Below are positions 1 through 23,129 of a stretch of 27,044 nt of DNA, piece after piece. The DNA lies in the IMG/VR virus record IMGVR_UViG_3300017758_000096, positions 1 through 27,044 of that record; one strand, written 5' to 3'. Under the pieces are notes generated by a model. The model saw only the letters and a program-made list of their open reading frames with translations, was not told the origin of the DNA and did no database searches. A program made the translations under genes and the position numbers. This DNA is from a virus. Each line of letters begins with the position of its first letter. Within the stretch, counting starts at the first letter, position 1.

Positions 1-123
1 ATGACAACTTGCCGTACGGCCGTTGCTTAGCCATACAGTACTGTTGTACCATTTTGCCGCACAGAAACTTGAACTAATGCTATTGTTTCTATCTCTTATC
101 TTATCTAAATACTTCTTATCCAT
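1..123 (-). CDS. Radical SAM protein, second tandem copy (partial, N-terminal 41 residues)
   Basis: An open frame starts with ATG at 123-121 and stays open for 41 codons to the left edge, so only the N-terminus is in the window. The residues include SSSFCAAKW and, 14 residues further on, SCH. These match the SPSFCLAKW and SCHHPP pattern at residues 19-45 of the complete radical SAM protein just upstream, with the same spacing. The start overlaps the end of that gene by 8 nt, the same kind of junction used elsewhere in this operon. I infer a tandem paralog of the twitch/SPASM-like radical SAM family. The CxxxCxxC cluster motif would lie outside the window, so the enzyme class rests on the N-terminal match and position only. 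Confidence 0.72.
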   Translation of the reverse strand, partial: MDKKYLDKIRDRNNSISSSFCAAKWYNSTVWLSNGRTASCH

Positions 124-1516
124 TGTATTCTTTACATAAATTATAATAGCCCACTAGTTCTGGAAATACTTCCTCAAAACTAACATTTCTTCTTTTGTCA
201 TACTCTTGTATAAACTTGCCAAAGTCTTTTCTATTCTTATCAATATCACCAATAGTACCTTTGAACATAAACTTACAAAGACGTTTGATTTGATCTATCT
301 CATCGTCCCATAGAAATCCACAATCTTTCATATGATAATTTTCTAATGCATATTCGTTTACAACTGTTTCCAAGTCTTCTAACATATTACGCTTTGCATC
401 TTCATTTAAGTTACAAACAGCAAGCATGTTTGGATAGCGTAGATAGTTTGTCATCATAGGTAAACAGTTACCTTCTACTAAATGATTGGTAATATATTTT
501 TTCCTTAGTGCAACAACATCTTCAATAAATTTGTGATATGTTGTGCTACTTAATATATTTACTGTTGTCATGAAAGCAAACGTTAAGTTCATTTTACCAT
601 ATGTTGCATCTAAAACTTTTTGTACATTCTTATACCATAAATCGTAATCTGATCCAAATCTAGCATAGTCGTTTTGTTTACCAACTGCTTCTCCGCTTGT
701 AAAGATTTGTATTTCTCTAAGTTGAGGTCCTACTTCAAGCATAAACTCAATAAGTCTATCAATGAATACATCTTGCACACCTAAGTTTGTATTGATGCTT
801 AATGTAAGTTCTTCGCTAGGATCTTTTTTAATTTGCTCTAATACTTTCCAACAGTCCTTACTCAACAATGGCTCACCGCCTGTTAATCTAAGTGTATGTA
901 AACTTGGATACAAGTCGGGCCACCATTTCCAAAATGCATCAACATATGGATTGTGTTCTCTATGAGGTATTAATGTTTTACCTTGATTGTCTAAGTTTTT
1001 AAAATCATTGTAATTGTTACTTGTTGGATAACCACCGTGTTGTTTTATTTCGTCATACCATTTGCTACTTAAATCTGGGCTACAGTATGCACATTTTAAA
1101 TTACAAACATTACTAAAACTTATTTCTAAGTAACTTGGATTAATGTCTTGTGTCTGTGCTTCTAGTACACTAAACATTCTGGGCTTACTCCAACTTACAT
1201 TGGACTTGTAAATTCTATCACTAAAATGTCCACCACCTGCGTCTTCAACTCTCCAACAATAATCACAACCAGACGGACGCTTGCCTTCAAGCATCTGCTT
1301 CATTTCTTTTTTCTTGTGTTGTGTATTGTGTAAAGCCGCTGGGTTCTTTTCTATTTCGTGAATAGGTATTTTATGAACAGGTGGATGGTGACAACTATGG
1401 TTCATACCTGTTTGCAAATACAAAGTATGTTGTAACCATTTTGCCAGACAAAAACTAGGGCTCACAGCATCTAGGTCATTCTTAACCCTGTTTAATTTAT
1501 CTAATATATCTGACAT
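116..1516 (-). CDS. Radical SAM protein (twitch/SPASM-like), 466 aa
   Basis: The motif CNLKCAYC (C138, C142, C145) is the CxxxCxxC ligand set for the [4Fe-4S] cluster that cleaves S-adenosylmethionine. LTGGEPLL at about 211-218 is the SAM-contacting GGE motif of the radical SAM barrel. Before the barrel lies a Cys-rich N-terminal region with SFCLAKW (C23), SCHHPP (C42) and GCDYCW (C84, C87). This arrangement is familiar from phage radical SAM proteins described as twitch-domain containing, and may bind an auxiliary cluster (inference). It would act in the infected cell's cytoplasm on a peptide or sugar substrate that I cannot identify. It starts 1 nt after the TAG of the glycosyltransferase-like gene and overlaps the next radical SAM gene by 8 nt, so the group is very likely cotranscribed. 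Confidence 0.88.
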   Translation of the reverse strand: MSDILDKLNRVKNDLDAVSPSFCLAKWLQHTLYLQTGMNHSCHHPPVHKIPIHEIEKNPAALHNTQHKKKEMKQMLEGKRPSGCDYCWRVEDAGGGHFSDRIYKSNVSWSKPRMFSVLEAQTQDINPSYLEISFSNVCNLKCAYCSPDLSSKWYDEIKQHGGYPTSNNYNDFKNLDNQGKTLIPHREHNPYVDAFWKWWPDLYPSLHTLRLTGGEPLLSKDCWKVLEQIKKDPSEELTLSINTNLGVQDVFIDRLIEFMLEVGPQLREIQIFTSGEAVGKQNDYARFGSDYDLWYKNVQKVLDATYGKMNLTFAFMTTVNILSSTTYHKFIEDVVALRKKYITNHLVEGNCLPMMTNYLRYPNMLAVCNLNEDAKRNMLEDLETVVNEYALENYHMKDCGFLWDDEIDQIKRLCKFMFKGTIGDIDKNRKDFGKFIQEYDKRRNVSFEEVFPELVGYYNLCKEYNG

Positions 1517-1517
1517 G

Positions 1518-2504
1518 CTATTCTAAAGTATATTCAACCTGGTCTTCTCTAACTTGCGCTCCAAGTCTACTTGGATTGATATATACCTCTTTATAAAATT
1601 TAGAACCTTCTACCCCAAGGTCTGCAATTTCTAAATTTAAATCTCTACGCAATTGAATACCTAGTTCATCACTAGCATCCTGTACTGCTTTATAATTCCA
1701 GCGTGTGCCTGTACGTCTACACATTTGATCATCATTTGTTTGAAACTGCGGTAACACTTCTGTATCAAAATAATTTGTAAGCCAACGGAAGTCTCTTACA
1801 TTTTTCCAATCCCATTCGTGTCTTTTTAAGTTTGTCATATATGCACCAAGTCTAGATCCATAAACAGCCCATACTCCATTTTCAACATCGTCACCAACGC
1901 TCATCCATGTAAGCAAACGCTTGTAATTTTTATCATGTACACGTGCTTTAAGATGATGTGGATTAATAACATCACCGTCAACTAATCCCATCTTAACACC
2001 TTCACGGAAACCAGCACGCCACGCTTGTAGTGGCGATCCATTATTCATTACTTGGCAGTAGATATTATTCATTTGTACATAATGAATGTTCCAACAAAAA
2101 TCTACCTGAGCACGTTTATCACCAGGTGGCGCATTTTCATGTGTTTGCATTCCATATACAACATCTTTTGGCCAACACTTAATACCACCGTTACCATATA
2201 CAAGACCGTTGATTTCATTCTTACCTGCCCAGCTAATAACATCTGTGCTTCTAATTTTATTCATATCAACTTCAACACCAAAGAACTGTGGATCAACAAT
2301 ATTGTCTGCATCAATAGTTATAAATCTATCTGTTTCTGCTAAATCAGCTGCCGCTTTGTGTGCCGCATCAGATCCAAATACTCCATGACTGCGTTTAGCC
2401 CATGGACATTTTTCTAATAGGTCGTTGTAGTTTTCATCTGCATTTGGCTCGTCAAAGCTAATAAAAACTATATCAAATTCATTGATACTTGCAATGTTAC
2501 TCAT
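1518..2504 (-). CDS. GT-A-type glycosyltransferase-like protein, 328 aa
   Basis: The N-terminal half reads as a nucleotide-sugar-binding GT-A fold. A beta strand DIVFISFDEPN (11-21) is followed by helices and then FITIDADNIV (61-70), where DADN fits the metal/UDP-sugar DxD motif. YGNGGIKCWPK at about 103-113 resembles the acceptor/sugar-binding loop seen in GT2-like enzymes. The C-terminal 150 residues are rich in Trp, Arg and Asp and I do not recognise them. The likely reaction is transfer of a sugar from a nucleotide donor to an unknown acceptor. The start codon forms an ATGA overlap with the stop of the preceding unknown gene, indicating translational coupling. The GT-A assignment rests on motif reading; donor, acceptor and family number are not determined. 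Confidence 0.7.
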   Translation of the reverse strand: MSNIASINEFDIVFISFDEPNADENYNDLLEKCPWAKRSHGVFGSDAAHKAAADLAETDRFITIDADNIVDPQFFGVEVDMNKIRSTDVISWAGKNEINGLVYGNGGIKCWPKDVVYGMQTHENAPPGDKRAQVDFCWNIHYVQMNNIYCQVMNNGSPLQAWRAGFREGVKMGLVDGDVINPHHLKARVHDKNYKRLLTWMSVGDDVENGVWAVYGSRLGAYMTNLKRHEWDWKNVRDFRWLTNYFDTEVLPQFQTNDDQMCRRTGTRWNYKAVQDASDELGIQLRRDLNLEIADLGVEGSKFYKEVYINPSRLGAQVREDQVEYTLE

Positions 2505-3481
2505 GTTAGTTCTCCGTTGTACGATATCGTAATCTTGTTGTTCTTGTATAGAAACAATGGTGTTTCTGGAATATTAAATGGTAGCTCTACATCTATTGAT
2601 GTTTCTGATAATAAATCGCCCACTGGAACATCTATACCACCTATAAGGTTATCGTATACTGTATCACAAACTACAATTTTAAATATGTTTCTTGCATCAA
2701 ACGTATTAAAGTCTGCACCTTGTAAATTTTGTTCAAAGTTTAATGTATTATCATTAACTACACGTATATTTATTTGACCTTTGCCATAGTATAAATTTGA
2801 ATTAATAATTTTATTTAAACCAGATTCGTTTGGTGTTGCAACATAATCTTCGTAGTAACTTAATCCATATTCATTGAATAGAGGTATAGTAAACAAACTG
2901 ATATGATCTATGTCGGCTGAACGTAAAATAACAGGTGGTAAGTCAATAATCATTTTTTTATGTTTAAATAAAAACAATGCGTCAATTGGTATTATTGTAA
3001 TTAAACTATCAGGATCATCCTTCTTACAAACAAAAATGTTCATAAGATTCCATTCGTTATGGACAATTCTATTAAGTTTGCTTATGTTATGAGTAGCCGC
3101 TATTTTAGTTCTGTTAACAGAAACAACAGCTTTCATATCTTTTTTGTATATAGAAAAGTGAATTTCGTCTTTATTAGGGGTATTGGTAGTTGGTATCTCT
3201 TTAAGTTCACGCCTTAATGGTTGCAACTCAATATGATTTTTCTTTCTTGTGAGATCCCAACTATTGCTTAGTACACTCCATCTTACTGCGTATTCTTTTG
3301 GATTAACATCGCCGCGTGATATTTTTCGAGCTTCAGAGTTGCCAATAATATTAACTAACTTGTATTCGTCAGATATCTCTCTAGGCTTTCTTTTTGAAAT
3401 GCCTACAATTTTACCAGTGTCTTCAATGAATGATAACCAGTAACTAGTTAAGTGTTTCTTCTCTGCTGTGTCGGAAGTCAT
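2501..3481 (-). CDS. Unrecognised 326-aa protein in the glycosyltransferase/radical SAM operon
   Basis: I do not recognise this protein. It is soluble, with no signal peptide or membrane segment. The first 90 residues are basic and include NIIGNSEARKISRGDVNP. The rest alternates hydrophobic strands such as LITIIPIDALFLF and KIVVCDTVYDNLIGGIDVPVGDLL with polar loops, suggesting a beta-rich fold. No DxD or Cys cluster is present. It overlaps the upstream GT-like gene by 38 nt, larger than any other overlap here. I see no later in-frame ATG that would shorten this without removing 100 or more residues, so I keep the start. It overlaps the downstream GT-A gene by 4 nt (ATGA). Its place between three GT-like genes suggests a role in the same pathway; this is inference from position only. 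Confidence 0.8.
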   Translation of the reverse strand: MTSDTAEKKHLTSYWLSFIEDTGKIVGISKRKPREISDEYKLVNIIGNSEARKISRGDVNPKEYAVRWSVLSNSWDLTRKKNHIELQPLRRELKEIPTTNTPNKDEIHFSIYKKDMKAVVSVNRTKIAATHNISKLNRIVHNEWNLMNIFVCKKDDPDSLITIIPIDALFLFKHKKMIIDLPPVILRSADIDHISLFTIPLFNEYGLSYYEDYVATPNESGLNKIINSNLYYGKGQINIRVVNDNTLNFEQNLQGADFNTFDARNIFKIVVCDTVYDNLIGGIDVPVGDLLSETSIDVELPFNIPETPLFLYKNNKITISYNGELT

Positions 3482-4265
3482 TGGCTATCTTTTCTTGATA
3501 AAATTCATCTTCGTGATAATAAAGTGTATTATTGATTGAGTAGTTCTGTAGCTTTAGTTTTTTTCCGCTTGTACTCCAAATACTAAACATGCTTGTCCAT
3601 TTTTCAACATCTTTTAACATACCATTAACTAGTACAGATCTCATATCAATATATGATAATATGTTGGGATCAAAAGGAAATACATCAACATCAATTCTAT
3701 TAGCAACAATAGTATGCATCATGTCCGGTTGATATGATAAGTCTACATGTTGTTTTGCAAACATAGTATTTTGTGTATCTCTCCAGTTTTTAGAAATAGG
3801 ATCTAGCAACTTAAAATATCTTAAACTAGATTCACTTTTATCAAAGTAGAACATATTACTGTAAACTTTTTTAAGTTTGTAATCATTTGCAAATACTGAA
3901 AACTTATGATCATACAATGGCATCATACGATAATCTTTACACTGTACAGGAAAACATATATTATGATGATCCAACAAGTAATCCCATAAAGAATCTTGAT
4001 TCTCCATTACAACTGTTCTGCAATCTATTGTAATTGTATAGTCATAAGGACTAGCCCAATATAATTGGTAATCGTTTTGTCTCGTTTCCGGCATAGGCGA
4101 AAACTTATAATCAATTACATTATCGTAACCTTTGTAACTCTCACTAAGTTTTGTTACTAAACTTACACTTGCATCTTTATTTCTTGTCTTAATACTATCG
4201 CATAGAAGTCTTGCTTGTAGTATTTCTTTTTCAGTATTTGCTTGTATGAGATATCCTTTATTCAT
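3444..4265 (-). CDS. GT-A-like protein with degenerate DxD, 273 aa
   Basis: The layout resembles the neighbouring 295-aa glycosyltransferase-like protein: an N-terminal GYLIQANTEKEILQARLL stretch (strand plus helix), then SVSLVTKL, then a strand ending in YTITIDCRTVVMENQD at about 76-91. The position equivalent to DxD reads D81-C82-R83, so the second metal-binding acid is replaced by Arg. It could be a metal-independent or inactive relative that pairs with the adjacent enzyme, or the true metal site may lie elsewhere. Residues 100-200 are rich in Tyr, Asp, Lys and Met. It overlaps the upstream GT gene by 8 nt and the downstream unknown gene by 38 nt. Glycosyltransferase-like fold is likely; catalytic activity is uncertain. 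Confidence 0.65.
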   Translation of the reverse strand: MNKGYLIQANTEKEILQARLLCDSIKTRNKDASVSLVTKLSESYKGYDNVIDYKFSPMPETRQNDYQLYWASPYDYTITIDCRTVVMENQDSLWDYLLDHHNICFPVQCKDYRMMPLYDHKFSVFANDYKLKKVYSNMFYFDKSESSLRYFKLLDPISKNWRDTQNTMFAKQHVDLSYQPDMMHTIVANRIDVDVFPFDPNILSYIDMRSVLVNGMLKDVEKWTSMFSIWSTSGKKLKLQNYSINNTLYYHEDEFYQEKIANDFRHSREETLN

Positions 4266-5145
4266 TAAACATCTCCACTAACTGGTGATATGATCTACCC
4301 AATGCTCTTTTGTTCATTACGTGTAAATCTAAATTGTTTGTTTGTACTAGAATGTTTTTCCAGTTCTTCTTATGATCGCAAGCAAGCATTATCCATTTAG
4401 TTTTATCTTGTATTTCTATAATATCATCTTTTTGATTTACGTTAACCATTTGTGTTGGTATTTTACCTATGACATCACTGTCTTGCATTCCATTTAATAT
4501 ATGGCTTGCAATACTTACACAATAATCTGTACGAAATAACTTTGGTGGAAAGTTGTATAGATACTGATAGAATTGATAGTTTTCTGCTACATGAGCCCAT
4601 GTATCAAAAAAGATCTTACTTAATTCGCTTTGATCAAAATAAATTACAGTACTCCACCACATCTTAATTCCAGACTCGTATAAGAACCTTTCACCAGATA
4701 ATGGTTGCTGATTTCTAATATCTAATGCTGTGTCGAACATAGCAACACCTGATTGCCTAAAGCACCCAAGTAAGAAATCACTCTTTACAATGTAATCAAT
4801 ATCTAATAGTATAGTTTGCTCAAACGGAGTGTATTCAAATACTTTGTGCTTGTTACTATTATTAAACTGTGCAACAAACTCCGTCCAAGGACTGTCGTTG
4901 TGTATACGTTTATTCTTTTTCATTTCATCATTAGTAAGAACAATATAATCAAAACATCTTTCTGCAAGTTCAGGTTTTGATTGTTGAAGCCATGCTTCAC
5001 TGCCTTCGTCTGTAATTAAGCATACAGGAAGTTTTAAATGTTCTTTTACATATAATGCGGCTAGTGTTGCAAGTTCTACATAATCAATTTGTTCATTGTT
5101 GTATGCAAAAAAGCAAACACCTTGCTTTGCTTGTTTTTCAGACAT
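4258..5145 (-). CDS. GT-A-type glycosyltransferase-like protein (GT8-like), 295 aa
   Basis: The N-terminus has GVCFFAYNNEQIDYVELATL, the strand-helix start of GT-A enzymes. LPVCLITDEGSEAWL follows, then TPFEQTILLDIDYIV at 106-120, where D115-I-D117 is the DxD motif that binds a divalent metal and the nucleotide-sugar phosphates. MWWSTVIYFDQSEL at about 156-169 resembles the 'found-on-the-other-side' strand typical of GT8/glycogenin-type folds. It probably transfers a sugar to an unknown acceptor in the infected cell. The start shares one base with the stop of the small upstream gene (TAATG), and the end overlaps the next GT-like gene by 8 nt. Fold and DxD are read from sequence; the GT8-like label is tentative. 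Confidence 0.75.
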   Translation of the reverse strand: MSEKQAKQGVCFFAYNNEQIDYVELATLAALYVKEHLKLPVCLITDEGSEAWLQQSKPELAERCFDYIVLTNDEMKKNKRIHNDSPWTEFVAQFNNSNKHKVFEYTPFEQTILLDIDYIVKSDFLLGCFRQSGVAMFDTALDIRNQQPLSGERFLYESGIKMWWSTVIYFDQSELSKIFFDTWAHVAENYQFYQYLYNFPPKLFRTDYCVSIASHILNGMQDSDVIGKIPTQMVNVNQKDDIIEIQDKTKWIMLACDHKKNWKNILVQTNNLDLHVMNKRALGRSYHQLVEMFNE

Positions 5146-5492
5146 TACCAGTCCATTGCTGTTTTGATGTTTCTAGATTTCTTAATCTTTGCATATTCAG
5201 CCTCATACTCTGTTGTAGCACTGAAGTATGCACTTGTTAATTTTTCTAGTAATTCCTCAAAGTTCTTAACATTAATTGGATTTTCTTTTGCATCAACAAG
5301 TACACCGTTTTTGTGTCCCATGTCTAAAAGTGTTTTTACAAATGTGATAGTACTACTATCTGCAATAAAAACACCACCAATATGATGCACAAGTTGTAAT
5401 TGTGCAAATCTATTTTTAATATTATTTTTCTGATTGTTAATTGTAGCTGTATAGTTGCTAAACTCTAATGCTTTCTGAAGCCGTTCGTCCAT
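5145..5492 (-). CDS. Small conserved T4-like marine phage protein, first gene of the modification operon, 115 aa
   Basis: I recognise the style of this protein (MDERLQKALEFSNY start, GHKNGVLVDAKENPI centre, AMDW end) from unannotated genes of T4-like marine myoviruses, but no function is known to me. It looks largely helical: charged helices at the N-terminus and at about 80-108, and a short hydrophobic strand GGVFIADSSTITFV around 39-52. There is no signal peptide or membrane helix. The start is strongly supported: AGGAG (5499-5503) lies 6 nt before the ATG, and a sigma70-type plus a late-type promoter lie just upstream. It is the first gene of an overlapping operon that continues with glycosyltransferase-like and radical SAM genes. 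Confidence 0.85.
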   Translation of the reverse strand: MDERLQKALEFSNYTATINNQKNNIKNRFAQLQLVHHIGGVFIADSSTITFVKTLLDMGHKNGVLVDAKENPINVKNFEELLEKLTSAYFSATTEYEAEYAKIKKSRNIKTAMDW

Positions 5493-5517
5493 AGATTACT
5501 CCTATAAGAATAGTATG

Positions 5518-5546
5518 ATTGTATGATATTTATGGGAGTATGTCAA
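5518..5546 (-). promoter_or_regulatory. Sigma70-type promoter for the modification operon
   Basis: On the minus strand TTGACA (5546-5541, perfect -35) is followed by 17 nt and TACAAT (5523-5518, one mismatch to TATAAT). Transcription would start near 5511, leaving a short leader that contains AGGAG at 5503-5499, 6 nt before the ATG at 5492. Both boxes and the spacer length match the bacterial housekeeping consensus. Host RNA polymerase could use this site without phage late factors, so the operon may be expressed early. Confidence 0.75.
5527..5534 (-). promoter_or_regulatory. T4-type late promoter-like box CATAAATA
   Basis: CATAAATA on the minus strand differs in one base from the T4 late (gp55) consensus TATAAATA. 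The identical 8-mer lies immediately before gp25. It sits inside the spacer of the sigma70-type promoter. It may give a second, late mode of transcription of the operon. In AT-rich DNA an isolated match is weak; support comes from position in the only gap here and the repeat before gp25. Confidence 0.5.
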
Positions 5547-5554
5547 CAAGAAAT

Positions 5555-6880
5555 TTAAGAAAATGGTGTCCACCCTGTAACTGTCTTAACTATAGGTGGG
5601 TTTATTTCTTTAAATAGGTAGGTAGTACTACCCGGTGTACCTGTAACTAGTGTTCTAGAAAAGCTACTATCGCTTGGATCTGGACTATCAATTGCAACCT
5701 TATAACCGTTGTGCAGTATCATTTCAGCATTAATCATGTATAAATCAGCTTGATCTTCAATTATTGTTGTTTTTACATAAATCTCAAATTTTCCTGTAGT
5801 TGCATTGTCTTGAGCTCTAGCCTCAATTCTCAGCCTTCTTGACGTATAGGCACTATATCCACCGTAACCGCCGTAACCACCATATCCGCCATAGCCTCCA
5901 TAACCTCCGTAGCCACCGTATCCTCCGTAGCCGCCATATCCTGAAGATAAGATTGATGAACTAGCATATCCACCATAGCCTCCATATCCACCATAGCCTC
6001 CATATCCGCCATAGCCTCCATATCCACCATAGCCGCCATATCCGCCATATGCTGATGGGTTTTGATTACCTGATGCTTCAAATAATATATTGTATCTTCC
6101 GTCTGGAAATAAATTGTAGAAGCCTCTGGTTAATCCAATATTTGCTCCTTGGTTAGTACCATTGCTTGTTGTACTGATAGCACCTATGCGTACTACCCCA
6201 ATTGAATTAAACACATAGGTCCATATTCCGTCATAAGCAGTCGTGCCTCCTGATGTAAGATCAGTTTCTAAAGATGTTAGTAACTGTCCTCCAGAATTAA
6301 AAAAATGTCTTGCATGGTTGTAATTATCAAATTCGTACATCTGTTCAGCAAACAAGTTATCTGGAAAAGGTGCATTACCTCTTACAGTCTTTGCACCATT
6401 GCCACTTACAATACTGTCTGCATCATCTAAGCATGTGAATTTGTTTGCATCAACAACAGTAACAATCTTGTTTCTTACTTCTTCTACTTCTGCATGTGTA
6501 ACCAAGTTAAGAACATTATTTGGCAATGGTCTTGTTTCTAATCCATTGTAACTTGCATTAACTGGATATAGGAAATCATTGTTAATATGATACATGCCTG
6601 CGTTTACTTGTGCTGCCACTGTATTGAGATGTTCTCTTTCAATCAATTGTCCTGTTGCTACACTTGTTTGTGTTGTTCCTTTAACTTTAACCGCATCTTG
6701 TCCCCAACCTTTTCTTCTTGGCGAGTTAGGATGATTATGATTTATATCAAACTGAAATGGGTAGTTTTCACCGTTCATACCGCTTGCTGGATCACTCCAA
6801 TAGTCGTTATAAAACGCTACCAGTTTTGTCATAAAATCTGATGCGCTTATTGTGGCATTAGGAACAAAGGGTGTAGACAA
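5555..6880 (-). CDS. Fibre/adhesin-like virion protein with two (Gly-Gly-Tyr)9 blocks, 441 aa, TTG start
   Basis: Probable tail-associated virion protein, inferred from composition and from its place in the fibre cluster. Residues 1-130 hold a head domain with QLIEREHLNTVAAQVN, like helical attachment segments of marine phage fibre proteins. Residues 279-305 and 316-342 are each exactly nine GGY triplets, separated by a Ser-rich spacer of ten residues. A beta-rich C-terminal domain follows (about 346-441). Gly-rich repeats of this kind recall the polyglycine-II sandwiches of gp38-type adhesins of T-even phages, where they display receptor-binding loops; that link is inference. The start is TTG at 6880-6878: GGAG lies 9 nt before it, inside the end of the preceding gene, and the first ATG is only at residue 17. 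No terminator is visible after the stop. Confidence 0.8.
   Translation of the reverse strand: MSTPFVPNATISASDFMTKLVAFYNDYWSDPASGMNGENYPFQFDINHNHPNSPRRKGWGQDAVKVKGTTQTSVATGQLIEREHLNTVAAQVNAGMYHINNDFLYPVNASYNGLETRPLPNNVLNLVTHAEVEEVRNKIVTVVDANKFTCLDDADSIVSGNGAKTVRGNAPFPDNLFAEQMYEFDNYNHARHFFNSGGQLLTSLETDLTSGGTTAYDGIWTYVFNSIGVVRIGAISTTSNGTNQGANIGLTRGFYNLFPDGRYNILFEASGNQNPSAYGGYGGYGGYGGYGGYGGYGGYGGYGGYASSSILSSGYGGYGGYGGYGGYGGYGGYGGYGGYGGYSAYTSRRLRIEARAQDNATTGKFEIYVKTTIIEDQADLYMINAEMILHNGYKVAIDSPDPSDSSFSRTLVTGTPGSTTYLFKEINPPIVKTVTGWTPFS
5855..5935 (-). repeat. (GGY)9 coding repeat, downstream block
   Basis: Nine 9-bp units encode Gly-Gly-Tyr without exception. The codons vary: Tyr is TAC in five units and TAT in four, and several Gly-codon pairs are used. 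The protein repeat is perfect while the DNA repeat is not, which points to selection on the protein. One SGY unit precedes it at 5936-5944. Confidence 0.9.
5966..6046 (-). repeat. (GGY)9 coding repeat, upstream block
   Basis: Nine 9-bp units encode Gly-Gly-Tyr, all with TAT for Tyr. Units GGTGGATAT and GGAGGCTAT partly alternate, giving an 18-bp period. This DNA is more uniform than the downstream block, so it may have expanded more recently. Both blocks have the same copy number. Confidence 0.9.
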
Positions 6881-6881
6881 T

Positions 6882-7757
6882 TTACTTTACTCCAACAACT
6901 ACTTCAATTACATCAACTTCTTGTGTTGCCTTATCCTCTAACGCACGACCAATAATACATTTCCAGTCGCTAGTATCTGATGCTTTTGCAACACCCGGTG
7001 TGCTACTTACAACAAGTCTTTGTCCTTTTGTTACTGGTCCAATTACTTTACAAGGTACCCTACCGGAAAGTGCAACAGCTGAGCCTGTTCCTTCTAGTGC
7101 GCTATTCATTAAATATGCTGGTTCTGTTGATACTACACCAAATACTTCTGTACAATTTTCATTTGCACATTCTGTAATCTCTGCACTACCTCCAAGCATC
7201 ACAACTGTTCCTGGCTCATATTCTTTATCGCTTGCATACATTTCTGCAAGGTCAGCATATTCTGCACTAGTTGCTATACCATGAAACTTTGCACCTGTTT
7301 GATTTGTTAGTGTCAGTCCTGTTTTAATTTTAGGAAAGGTTGAGTATACTGCATCATTTATGTTTACATCAAAGTTTGCTTCTGTACTCATTGCTACTAC
7401 ATCACTACCATTTTGTTGGATAATATAAACTAAGTGATCAATTCCCATTGTATCTTTTACTGTGCGTTGTTCTGACATAGTTGAGACTGTTAACCATCGA
7501 CCAACTGCATCAGTTGATCCGGTAGTGTCCCAAATGTATAAAACTGTGTTTGTAGTATCATACCAAAGCTGACCTTCAATTGGATCCGTAGGTGCTGTAT
7601 CGCTTGCTTGATTTTGTAGCAGATTGATAAAACTTTGTGCTACTGATTGGCCATATCCAAAGTAATCTTTACCAACAAGTTCAAGACTAGTTTCTGTATT
7701 CAGTTGGCCCTCGTTAATTGTAATTGTGCCGTTTTTCTTGTTTACTGTATATGACAT
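6882..7757 (-). CDS. Tail fibre-like structural protein, 291 aa
   Basis: The N-terminal module (about 1-95) contains LVGKDYFGYGQSVAQSFINL, then PTDPIEGQLWYDTT and an aromatic strand VLYIWDTTG. This pattern recurs at the start of fibre and appendage proteins of T4-like marine phages. The C-terminal half has AEYADLAEMYASDKEYEPG at about 164-182, then VVMLGG and a repeated beta pattern ending GRALEDKATQEVDVIEVVVG. It resembles the beta-rich C-terminal domains, some of them autoproteolytic, found at fibre ends. I see no clear catalytic set here. The ATG has AGGAAG about 7 nt upstream, within the end of the preceding gene. It is followed after 1 nt by the GGY-repeat protein, whose ribosome-binding site lies in this gene's last codons. 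Confidence 0.78.
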   Translation of the reverse strand: MSYTVNKKNGTITINEGQLNTETSLELVGKDYFGYGQSVAQSFINLLQNQASDTAPTDPIEGQLWYDTTNTVLYIWDTTGSTDAVGRWLTVSTMSEQRTVKDTMGIDHLVYIIQQNGSDVVAMSTEANFDVNINDAVYSTFPKIKTGLTLTNQTGAKFHGIATSAEYADLAEMYASDKEYEPGTVVMLGGSAEITECANENCTEVFGVVSTEPAYLMNSALEGTGSAVALSGRVPCKVIGPVTKGQRLVVSSTPGVAKASDTSDWKCIIGRALEDKATQEVDVIEVVVGVK

Positions 7758-7760
7758 CTT

Positions 7761-8354
7761 TTAACTTCCTGCTGTTATTCTTAGAGTATATCGAATCTCT
7801 AGTTTACGGTTAAGGCTTTTTTGTATAGGGTGAAAAATTAAATGTGTAAGTAGTTCATCGTTGTCGCCAACAAGTGCAAGTTCGTCAAATACATAATTTT
7901 CTGGATCATCAAAGTCGCTTGCATCATCACTTGGTTGAGCTGTGCTTGGTTCATTATAATCAAGTGTTACAATTGAAGTTAAGTCTCTAAATGTTTGACC
8001 TGACTCTCCTGTAACTTCAAATGAGGCTACAGCCTTTTCAAAGATTGTTGTACCGCTAGAACCAAATCCTTGTTCATATAGAGATTGTCCTGGGCCGCTT
8101 GTGTTGGGTTGTTTGTATGTAATGTTACCATTAGCATCAATCATAGTACCGCCTCTACCAAATCTAATTTTAGTAATATAGTAATCTAATCCGTTTTGGT
8201 TGGTTTGATTACCAAGTAGATTTGCAATAGCGATAGCCATGTTTTCAAAGTTAATTGCATTAAATTTATCAAGCAGAACTTCACCCGTGTCTGCATCGCT
8301 GATCAGTACATGACCGCTAAATGATAAATGTGCATTATCTGTTGTATTATACAT
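7761..8354 (-). CDS. Conserved T4-like marine phage structural protein, 197 aa (207 aa if the upstream ATG is used)
   Basis: A soluble beta-rich protein with SGHVLISDADTGEVLLDK, a helix ENMAIAIANLLGNQT, and ITKIRFGRGGTMIDANG. I know this arrangement from unnamed structural proteins near the fibre genes of marine T4-like phages. A baseplate- or tail-attached role is inferred from context. Two starts are possible. The ATG at 8384 has no Shine-Dalgarno sequence and overlaps a CTAAATA late-promoter-like box. The ATG at 8354 is preceded by AAAGGAACAGG at suitable spacing and lies about 20 nt after that box, so I chose it. The stop is 3 nt before the next ATG. Confidence 0.78.
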   Translation of the reverse strand: MYNTTDNAHLSFSGHVLISDADTGEVLLDKFNAINFENMAIAIANLLGNQTNQNGLDYYITKIRFGRGGTMIDANGNITYKQPNTSGPGQSLYEQGFGSSGTTIFEKAVASFEVTGESGQTFRDLTSIVTLDYNEPSTAQPSDDASDFDDPENYVFDELALVGDNDELLTHLIFHPIQKSLNRKLEIRYTLRITAGS

Positions 8355-8374
8355 GTTTGCCTGTTCCTTTACAC

Positions 8375-8382
8375 TATTTAGC
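8375..8382 (-). promoter_or_regulatory. Late promoter-like box GCTAAATA
   Basis: The minus strand reads GCTAAATAGTGTAAAGGAAC just after the giant gene. CTAAATA resembles the T4 late box TATAAATA. A start site 6-8 nt downstream would give a short leader beginning near the AAAGGAAC ribosome-binding site of the next gene. Assignment is by resemblance and position only. Confidence 0.4.
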
Positions 8383-8399
8383 ATAGAAATTAAATACGC

Positions 8400-22589: not shown

Positions 22590-23129
22590 TTATGATACTA
22601 CTTTTAACTGATCCTCTGGCCAATTAATATAGTCTTGCCACTTGGCATCTGGTATAGTGTACGGATAATGCTTTCTACTGTTGTTTATTTGGTGCCAAGT
22701 GGGTCTATATGGCTTATTAATAGGCTGTATAATATTACTGCCTTTTTTAACATTACAAGGACCGCAAGCGGCAACAGTATTTGTCCATCCCAATTTACCA
22801 CCTTTAGACTTTGGAATGACATGATCTAGTGTTAGCTCATCATAATGAAAATCATTGCCACAATATTGACACTGATAGTCATCTCTTATATAGACATTCC
22901 GCCGGGAATACCTCGCTAAATTTGGTTGCTTTTGATAGGTGTGTAGCATTACAACACTTGGCATTGGTATAGTTAAATTTGCCGATCTTAGTACACGATC
23001 TTCGTAATTTTCAACTACGTGTATCTTGTCTGCAAACATATACTTTACAGCATTTTGCCAACTGATTGTACTCAGTGGCAAATAACTAAGTGGTCTTGCA
23101 TCTGCATTTAATAGAAGTACGCTGGGCAA
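22590..23129 (-). CDS. HNH endonuclease, 179 aa, TTG start
   Basis: The nuclease core is at about 80-130. CQYC (C87, C90) and CGPC (C122, C125) form the structural zinc site, LTLDHVIPKSKGG carries the catalytic D102-H103, and WTNTVAACGPCN supplies the Asn. This is the common beta-beta-alpha-metal HNH family found in many bacteria and T4-like marine phages. The first 30 residues (PSVLLLNADARPLSYLPLS) are a conserved N-terminal part of that family. The frame has a TAA two codons before the TTG at 23129-23127, and the next ATG is at residue 31, so TTG must be the start; AAGGA lies 10 nt upstream. It separates the lysozyme from gp25 and could be a freestanding homing-type or a host/phage DNA-cutting enzyme. 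Confidence 0.9.
   Translation of the reverse strand: MPSVLLLNADARPLSYLPLSTISWQNAVKYMFADKIHVVENYEDRVLRSANLTIPMPSVVMLHTYQKQPNLARYSRRNVYIRDDYQCQYCGNDFHYDELTLDHVIPKSKGGKLGWTNTVAACGPCNVKKGSNIIQPINKPYRPTWHQINNSRKHYPYTIPDAKWQDYINWPEDQLKVVS

Follow-up and report, generated by a model that had tools for sequence, protein, structure and literature searches.

A conserved operon of glycosyltransferase-like and radical SAM genes beside a fibre-like gene in large aquatic phages, with a possible role in fibre glycosylation

The DNA analysed here (the window) is the entire 27,044-base contig of the IMG/VR virus record IMGVR_UViG_3300017758_000096, and its main genes lie on the minus strand. At positions 1-5546, downstream of FIB, a gene for a fibre-like virion protein, we find an operon of seven genes, all on that strand, of which six are complete and the last is cut short by the contig end. 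The operon encodes the small protein S115, the glycosyltransferase (GT)-like proteins GT_DID and GT_DCR, the protein U326, the putative glycosyltransferase GT_DADN, and the radical S-adenosylmethionine (SAM) proteins rSAM1 and rSAM2 (Table 1). The seven-gene row and the gene lengths given for it in an initial annotation, made from the sequence alone, were recovered as described, and rSAM2 could be completed in a near-identical contig (IMGVR_UViG_3300017752_000043, 39.7 kb), whose operon proteins in common with the window are 99.7–100% identical. Consecutive genes from S115 to GT_DADN overlap by 1, 8, 38, and 4 nt, and rSAM1 overlaps rSAM2 by 8 nt; the overlaps of 1–38 nt noted earlier hence hold at every junction except that before rSAM1, where a 1-nt gap is found. 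In the longer contig, the operon continues with the full 449-aa rSAM2, more N_Twi and other radical SAM proteins, and proteins without a known family. With seven radical SAM matches in that record, the gene cluster extends far beyond the window's end.

The promoter region assigned ahead of the operon was also recovered. It is a strong sigma70-type promoter with a T4-late-like element (CATAAATA) in its spacer, and AGGAG precedes the S115 start codon ATG. Sigma70-like sites were found in 131 of 227 homologous FIB–S115 gaps (33 expected from mononucleotide shuffles), and the late-like element, allowing at most one mismatch, in 103 gaps compared to 38 in shuffles. Since the shuffles preserve base composition only and related gaps are non-independent, these enrichments are strong but do not translate into a probability; they nevertheless argue strongly for an operon promoter conserved among relatives.

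Table 1. Position and basis of assignment of the operon genes, the FIB gene, and associated features in the window.
Feature	Position	Strand	Basis or context
rSAM2, first 41 codons, cut by contig end	1-123	minus	full 449 aa at L083:11546-12895
rSAM1, N_Twi-type radical SAM, CxxxCxxC	116-1516	minus	NF033640 E=3.4e-96; PF04055 above cut-off
GT_DADN, putative glycosyltransferase, D[AG]DN-like motif	1518-2504	minus	motif and context
U326, fast-evolving multi-domain beta-sandwich protein (predicted)	2501-3481	minus	AlphaFold2 (AF2) mean predicted local distance difference test (pLDDT) 83
GT_DCR, GT_DID paralogue, DxD degraded to DCR (TIDCRT)	3444-4265	minus	alignment, profile match
GT_DID, glycosyltransferase-like, distantly glycogenin-like	4258-5145	minus	DxD and profile comparison
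S115, small conserved protein, function unassigned	5145-5492	minus	alignment of relatives
Sigma70-type promoter TTGACA-N17-TACAAT	5518-5546	minus	within the 62-nt FIB–S115 gap
T4-late-like element	5527-5534	minus	inside promoter spacer
FIB, 441-aa fibre-like virion protein, TTG start	5555-6880	minus	1 nt after p291 in the virion gene row
Two (YGG)9 tracts in FIB with linker between	5969-6049, 5858-5938 (together 5858-6049)	minus	
p291, conserved virion gene upstream of FIB	6882-7757	minus	phrog_6427 E=8.5e-19; phrog_19602 'tail fiber protein' E=2e-6
p207, conserved virion gene upstream of FIB	7761-8384	minus	phrog_11259 E=1.7e-50

Conservation of the gene order far exceeds chance. Of 260 distinct S115 loci collected, 210 extend at least 1 kb downstream, and in 209 of these the first family member detected beyond S115 was GT_DID. 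Where 2.5 kb was available, the step after GT_DID led to GT_DCR in 133 loci and to U326 in 22, and GT_DADN was found in all 84 S115 loci with at least 6 kb downstream. The gap between FIB and S115 has a median of 59 nt, and 235 of 248 gaps measure 20–120 nt. The conserved order thus reads FIB, S115, GT_DID, GT_DCR, often U326, GT_DADN, and then radical SAM and/or further DADN genes, and several hundred contigs of uncultured large aquatic phages carry the unit. Among 16 large genomes, FIB and GT_DID were both present, adjacent, and confined to one place per genome in 14, and both absent in two; the second match to the GT_DID profile seen in most of these genomes is the neighbouring GT_DCR.

The initial annotation had suggested a dedicated modification pathway, to be abandoned if the genes proved unlinked in relatives. 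The gene order, the promoter, and the all-or-none occurrence of GT_DID and FIB speak for such a pathway, and the FIB-S115-GT_DID-GT_DCR core stays linked, but the radical SAM genes do not belong to it in an obligate manner. S115, GT_DID, and GT_DADN were all missing from 18 of the 59 rSAM1 loci whose upstream flank exceeds 8.5 kb. The operon is therefore a composite of a fibre-linked core and of DADN and radical SAM genes that also occur elsewhere, and the latter are separable from the fibre-linked unit. A tblastn search with rSAM1, U326, S115, GT_DID, GT_DADN, and a FIB relative against 50,697 phage records from an isolate collection returned no match, whereas the baseplate wedge, used as positive control, matched 89 phage records with jumbo phages at the top (GAP32, CBB, and PA5oct among them). 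Assigning a host from bacterial bins was rejected: the matches in several metagenome-assembled genomes are likely phage contigs binned along, and we therefore claim no host.

FIB, which lies outside the coordinates initially annotated, is the best candidate for a substrate of the operon. The earlier statement that an obvious substrate gene is lacking is probably incorrect, given a Tyr-periodic disordered loop in a protein encoded only 62 nt upstream. FIB relatives, gathered by DNA motif scans, share a conserved RxFFN[AS]GG motif. No relative was found in PHROG, Pfam, or PDB, and the fold had no PDB match with E<0.7; the label 'fibre' is thus based on position. In the AF2 model (predicted template modelling score 0.77), residues 278-345 form a predicted disordered loop (pLDDT about 41-44) between two confident strands. 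A Tyr at the end of this loop is conserved in 98% of relatives (242/247; 261 FIB clusters). In the window, the loop carries two (YGG)9 tracts written in mixed synonymous codons, and all nine units of the second tract differ as DNA, which shows that the tract is kept as protein sequence and not as a DNA repeat. Scanning 2.9 million viral contigs for (YGG)6 yielded 81 stretches, and of the 80 examined, 75 were located within FIB or next to the conserved genes around it. In relatives, (GY)n, (YA)n, or (YS)n takes the place of (YGG)n. Tyr periodicity marks the majority of 33 long loop insertions, the spacer being GG, G, A, or S; the tyrosines therefore persist while the spacers vary. Unlike (YGG)n, which is specific, (GY)n was rejected as a marker for FIB, as just 20 of 120 matches (viral contigs L182-L301) fell in FIB. 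The remaining 100 (GY)6 tracts lay outside a fibre context, and such tracts are common in unrelated short viral open reading frames.

One view of this loop would be a simple, unmodified Tyr/Gly/Ser receptor-binding surface, with the adjoining transferases acting elsewhere. Binding loops are typically made up of Tyr and small spacer residues, and a variable loop on a fibre-like protein suits host recognition. Long regular (YGG)n tracts would, however, make an odd specific paratope, and the linkage to the GT genes is left unexplained, so that we consider a bare loop improbable.

The GT_DID/GT_DCR pair offers a different view. Both families are paralogous (hhalign profile–profile comparison, E=8.6e-32). 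The GT_DCR family profile matched glycogenin-1 over approximately 100 N-terminal positions (E=2e-9), with nothing else convincing in PDB, and glycogenins were the sole PDB matches of the GT_DID profile (E=0.27). Glycogenin glucosylates a tyrosine and acts as a dimer. As none of 30 GT_DID and 29 GT_DCR members matched the Pfam model Glyco_transf_8, we do not file the pair as glycogenin. Asp115 and Asp117 of the DxD motif are invariant in all 30 GT_DID sequences. In the GT_DCR family, the motif is retained in many relatives and lost in the window copy, which is possibly non-catalytic. Of the three GT-like proteins named initially, GT_DCR is a member of a GT family but lacks the DxD in the window copy, and GT_DADN matched no family in the databases searched. 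Some (YGG)n loci at first appeared to have lost GT_DCR, but a clean loss was rejected, as a 232-239-aa protein fills the slot (e.g., L111:2640-3344). Its C-terminal half is weakly GT_DCR-like (89.8% probability over 136 columns in the comparison with the GT_DCR profile).

With the exception of rSAM1, no operon protein of the window matched Pfam, NCBIfam, or PHROGs, and S115 had no significant match in PDB. GT_DADN is highly conserved (54 invariant columns in 17 sequences), and because no Pfam, NCBIfam, PHROG, or PDB family matched, its GT label is derived from motif and context. U326 was rejected as an enzyme: its AF2 model consists of beta-sandwich beads with weak FN3-like structure matches alone (TMq <=0.23). 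Its viral match A0A6J5TAT9 (E=1e-17) is uncharacterised.

We tentatively favour the interpretation, held at somewhat below an even chance, that the enzymes of the operon glycosylate the phage's own FIB and tailor the attached glycan. It draws support from two sides: in PDB, the paired GT families convincingly match nothing but glycogenins, which glucosylate a tyrosine, and GT_DID is tied by order and co-occurrence to FIB, the protein with the Tyr-periodic loop. In this scheme, GT_DID, the partner with the intact DxD, would add the first sugar to FIB, most likely on loop tyrosines, and the DxD-less GT_DCR of the window would serve as structural partner, by analogy with the glycogenin dimer. U326 might bind or present the acceptor, S115 could be an adaptor or helper, GT_DADN would lengthen the glycan, and the N_Twi radical SAM proteins might epimerise, dehydrate, or oxidise its sugars. 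Once complete, the glycan would shield the fibre or change how it binds its receptor. As to the acceptor, tyrosine takes up a limited share of the total probability, counted within fibre glycosylation; it might be the single conserved Tyr in most lineages and the multi-site tract in the lineage of the window. Our most specific proposal is speculative and doubtful in its full form: in a widespread, uncultured group of large phages, a glycogenin-like pair would glycosylate tyrosines of the phage's fibre as a dedicated system, and one lineage would have amplified a single conserved site to a mucin-like (YGG)n/(GY)n tract bearing radical-SAM-tailored sugars.

Further evidence comes from the GT_DID tree, in which 20 of 22 tract rows fall into one clade of 23 rows (SH-aLRT 100), with spacer types interchanging within it. 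This clade is set apart by 14 near-diagnostic GT_DID positions, e.g., WST for WAT. Of its three other rows, L008 has a tract broken by Phe, L370 a Tyr-rich loop, and L504 Tyr-rich stretches with no regular tract. Because the tract arose essentially in one clade, the match between tract and GT_DID clade is suggestive but not independent evidence.

Several points weigh against glycosylation of FIB. The tract arose essentially once or a few times, so that common descent confounds its agreement with the GT_DID clade, and the FIB–GT_DID linkage could mirror a conserved virion gene order. The conserved loop-end Tyr may be structural, GT_DID itself resembles glycogenin at only E=0.27, and both N_Twi radical SAM and DADN genes are found in FIB-free settings, in phages as well as in Bdellovibrionia and Rhodobacteraceae. 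A sigma70-type promoter would permit early expression, which suits a host-directed role too.

Such a role is the core of the main rival explanation, in which the transferases and radical SAM proteins alter the O-chain or capsule of the host against superinfecting phages, and the fibre gene adjoins them as part of a shared host-recognition island. In pelagimyophages, a host-surface role has been proposed for the transferase genes of the fibre island, those of GT8 included (PMC7029224). The promoter fits this explanation, and the many radical SAM genes, together with nucleotidyltransferase-like and APS-kinase-like genes in relatives, resemble a sugar pathway. DADN and radical SAM genes without a fibre in bacteria fit as well: genomes of Bdellovibrionia hold GT_DADN homologues with an N_Twi radical SAM gene, and those of Rhodobacteraceae hold DADN alone. 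It fails to explain, however, why GT_DID is tied to one fibre family in both order and presence, and why the Tyr loop tracks one GT_DID clade. We regard modification of the host surface as on the whole unlikely, but as a serious contender. Three Bdellovibrionia/Bdellovibrionaceae contigs (L547, L553, and L554) show the order DADN, DADN, N_Twi radical SAM without the fibre unit, which is possibly a cellular relative of the phage module.

The radical SAM proteins could also act on the fibre peptide itself, introducing Tyr-derived cross-links or backbone/side-chain changes in the manner of maturases of ribosomally synthesised and post-translationally modified peptides (RiPPs). Twitch/SPASM-type radical SAM proteins frequently modify peptides (PMC11002830), and a tract of periodic tyrosines would offer them a natural target. 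rSAM1 scored 323 bits against NF033640 (curated cut-off, 170 bits), with CNLKCAYC as a cluster motif that fits CxxxCxxC. The L083 copies of rSAM2 and rSAM3 reached 294 and 405 bits, and rSAM2 is a genuine gene. RiPP-maturase models stayed far below their cut-offs for the operon radical SAM proteins, and no precursor peptide gene was seen. Moreover, rSAM1 is also found without FIB, and with at least 6 kb sampled downstream, an rSAM1-type gene was present in only 11 of 21 tract loci compared to 54 of 63 tract-free S115 loci. That the Tyr tract needs a radical SAM partner was rejected, since about half of the tract loci have none in the sampled flank, and peptide modification appears quite improbable.

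Several other observations were made around the radical SAM genes. On the 518,643-base contig IMGVR_UViG_3300017917_001342 (L003/G003), there are 21 matches to N_Twi radical SAM proteins, grouped in several clusters. In the relative L095, an adenosine 5'-phosphosulfate (APS)-kinase-like gene (403-894, PF01583 above cut-off) lies downstream of the radical SAM genes, along with a GxPRSGTT protein that is sulfotransferase-like by eye only (L095:3692-4426) and a weak nucleotidyltransferase match (L095:1723-3114). By sequence, these L095 genes hint at sulfated sugars. Two further families recur among the radical SAM genes (L083:3356-6033 and L083:6023-6973; similar in L085, L095, and L097), one beginning like 'YKKLVITLRNTEDTDSKDVVWDIREHALAQKWA' and the other with 'VFGCSYMKGTELP', and their L083 copies had no Pfam or NCBIfam match.

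Phage GTs often act on DNA, and a DNA hypermodification cluster would be in line with this common use. DNA modification has been raised for another large aquatic phage lineage (PMC12619734). The operon, however, sits in a virion module with an obligate FIB linkage. TET/JBP had no match in five relatives, but the search was equally silent on controls and the records may be fragments. We consider DNA hypermodification very improbable.

Islands that combine fibre, GT8, and radical SAM genes are already known, as are marine phages rich in radical SAM genes, which qualifies the earlier description of the operon as an undescribed system. The host recognition cluster (HRC) of pelagimyophages is a variable island of tail fibres, several transferases (GT8 being the most represented), and radical SAM cassettes (PMC7029224, 2020), and resembles the operon in uniting these three components. 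However, the HRC shows little synteny and was interpreted in terms of the O-chain, whereas we find FIB-S115-GT_DID-GT_DCR in fixed order, preceded by a promoter specific to the unit, and a fibre loop with periodic tyrosines. The HRC lies between VrlC and gp14 of a T4-like pelagimyophage. The neighbours here are baseplate wedge genes, and the wedge of the window matches jumbo phages such as GAP32, CBB, and PA5oct. A marine T4-like phage genome of 183 kb with 12 radical SAM genes, read as iron–sulfur metabolism (PMC5332604, 2017), is radical SAM-rich like the relatives described here, but the parts of the text consulted describe no fibre operon. In glycogenin (GT8), the match covers the N-terminal half only, and the acceptor here would be another protein. 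Mycobacteriophage virions carry glycosylated proteins, with GT genes of the phage (Freeman et al. 2023, as cited in PMC12619734); according to the citing paper, these glycans sit on capsid and tail-tube subunits, whereas the candidate here is a fibre-like loop. Tyrosine O-glycosylation of S-layer proteins sets a precedent for sugar on tyrosine in bacteria (PMC2943079 and related work, as far as consulted), although in a cell-surface system and not in a phage. Searches of an open-access library turned up no previous account of FIB-S115-GT_DID-GT_DCR as a fixed unit, of its promoter, or of a Tyr-periodic loop tied to a GT clade, and to this extent the earlier description stands. Transferases near phage fibre genes are usually read as modifiers of the host surface or of DNA. 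The strict pairing of an enzyme with a virion protein, combined with a periodic acceptor-like sequence, provides a testable case of a phage glycosylating its own adhesin. If true, tyrosine-linked glycans would join phage host recognition, and the arrays of radical SAM genes in marine phages, so far puzzling, would gain a role.

Going upstream from the operon, FIB comes first, then p291 and p207, which are syntenic in relatives, then the gene of a virion protein of 3531 aa and those of the baseplate wedge and hub. An HNH endonuclease gene lies between the baseplate genes (22590-23129), and a similar gene was seen by eye at the same place in a 221-kb relative.

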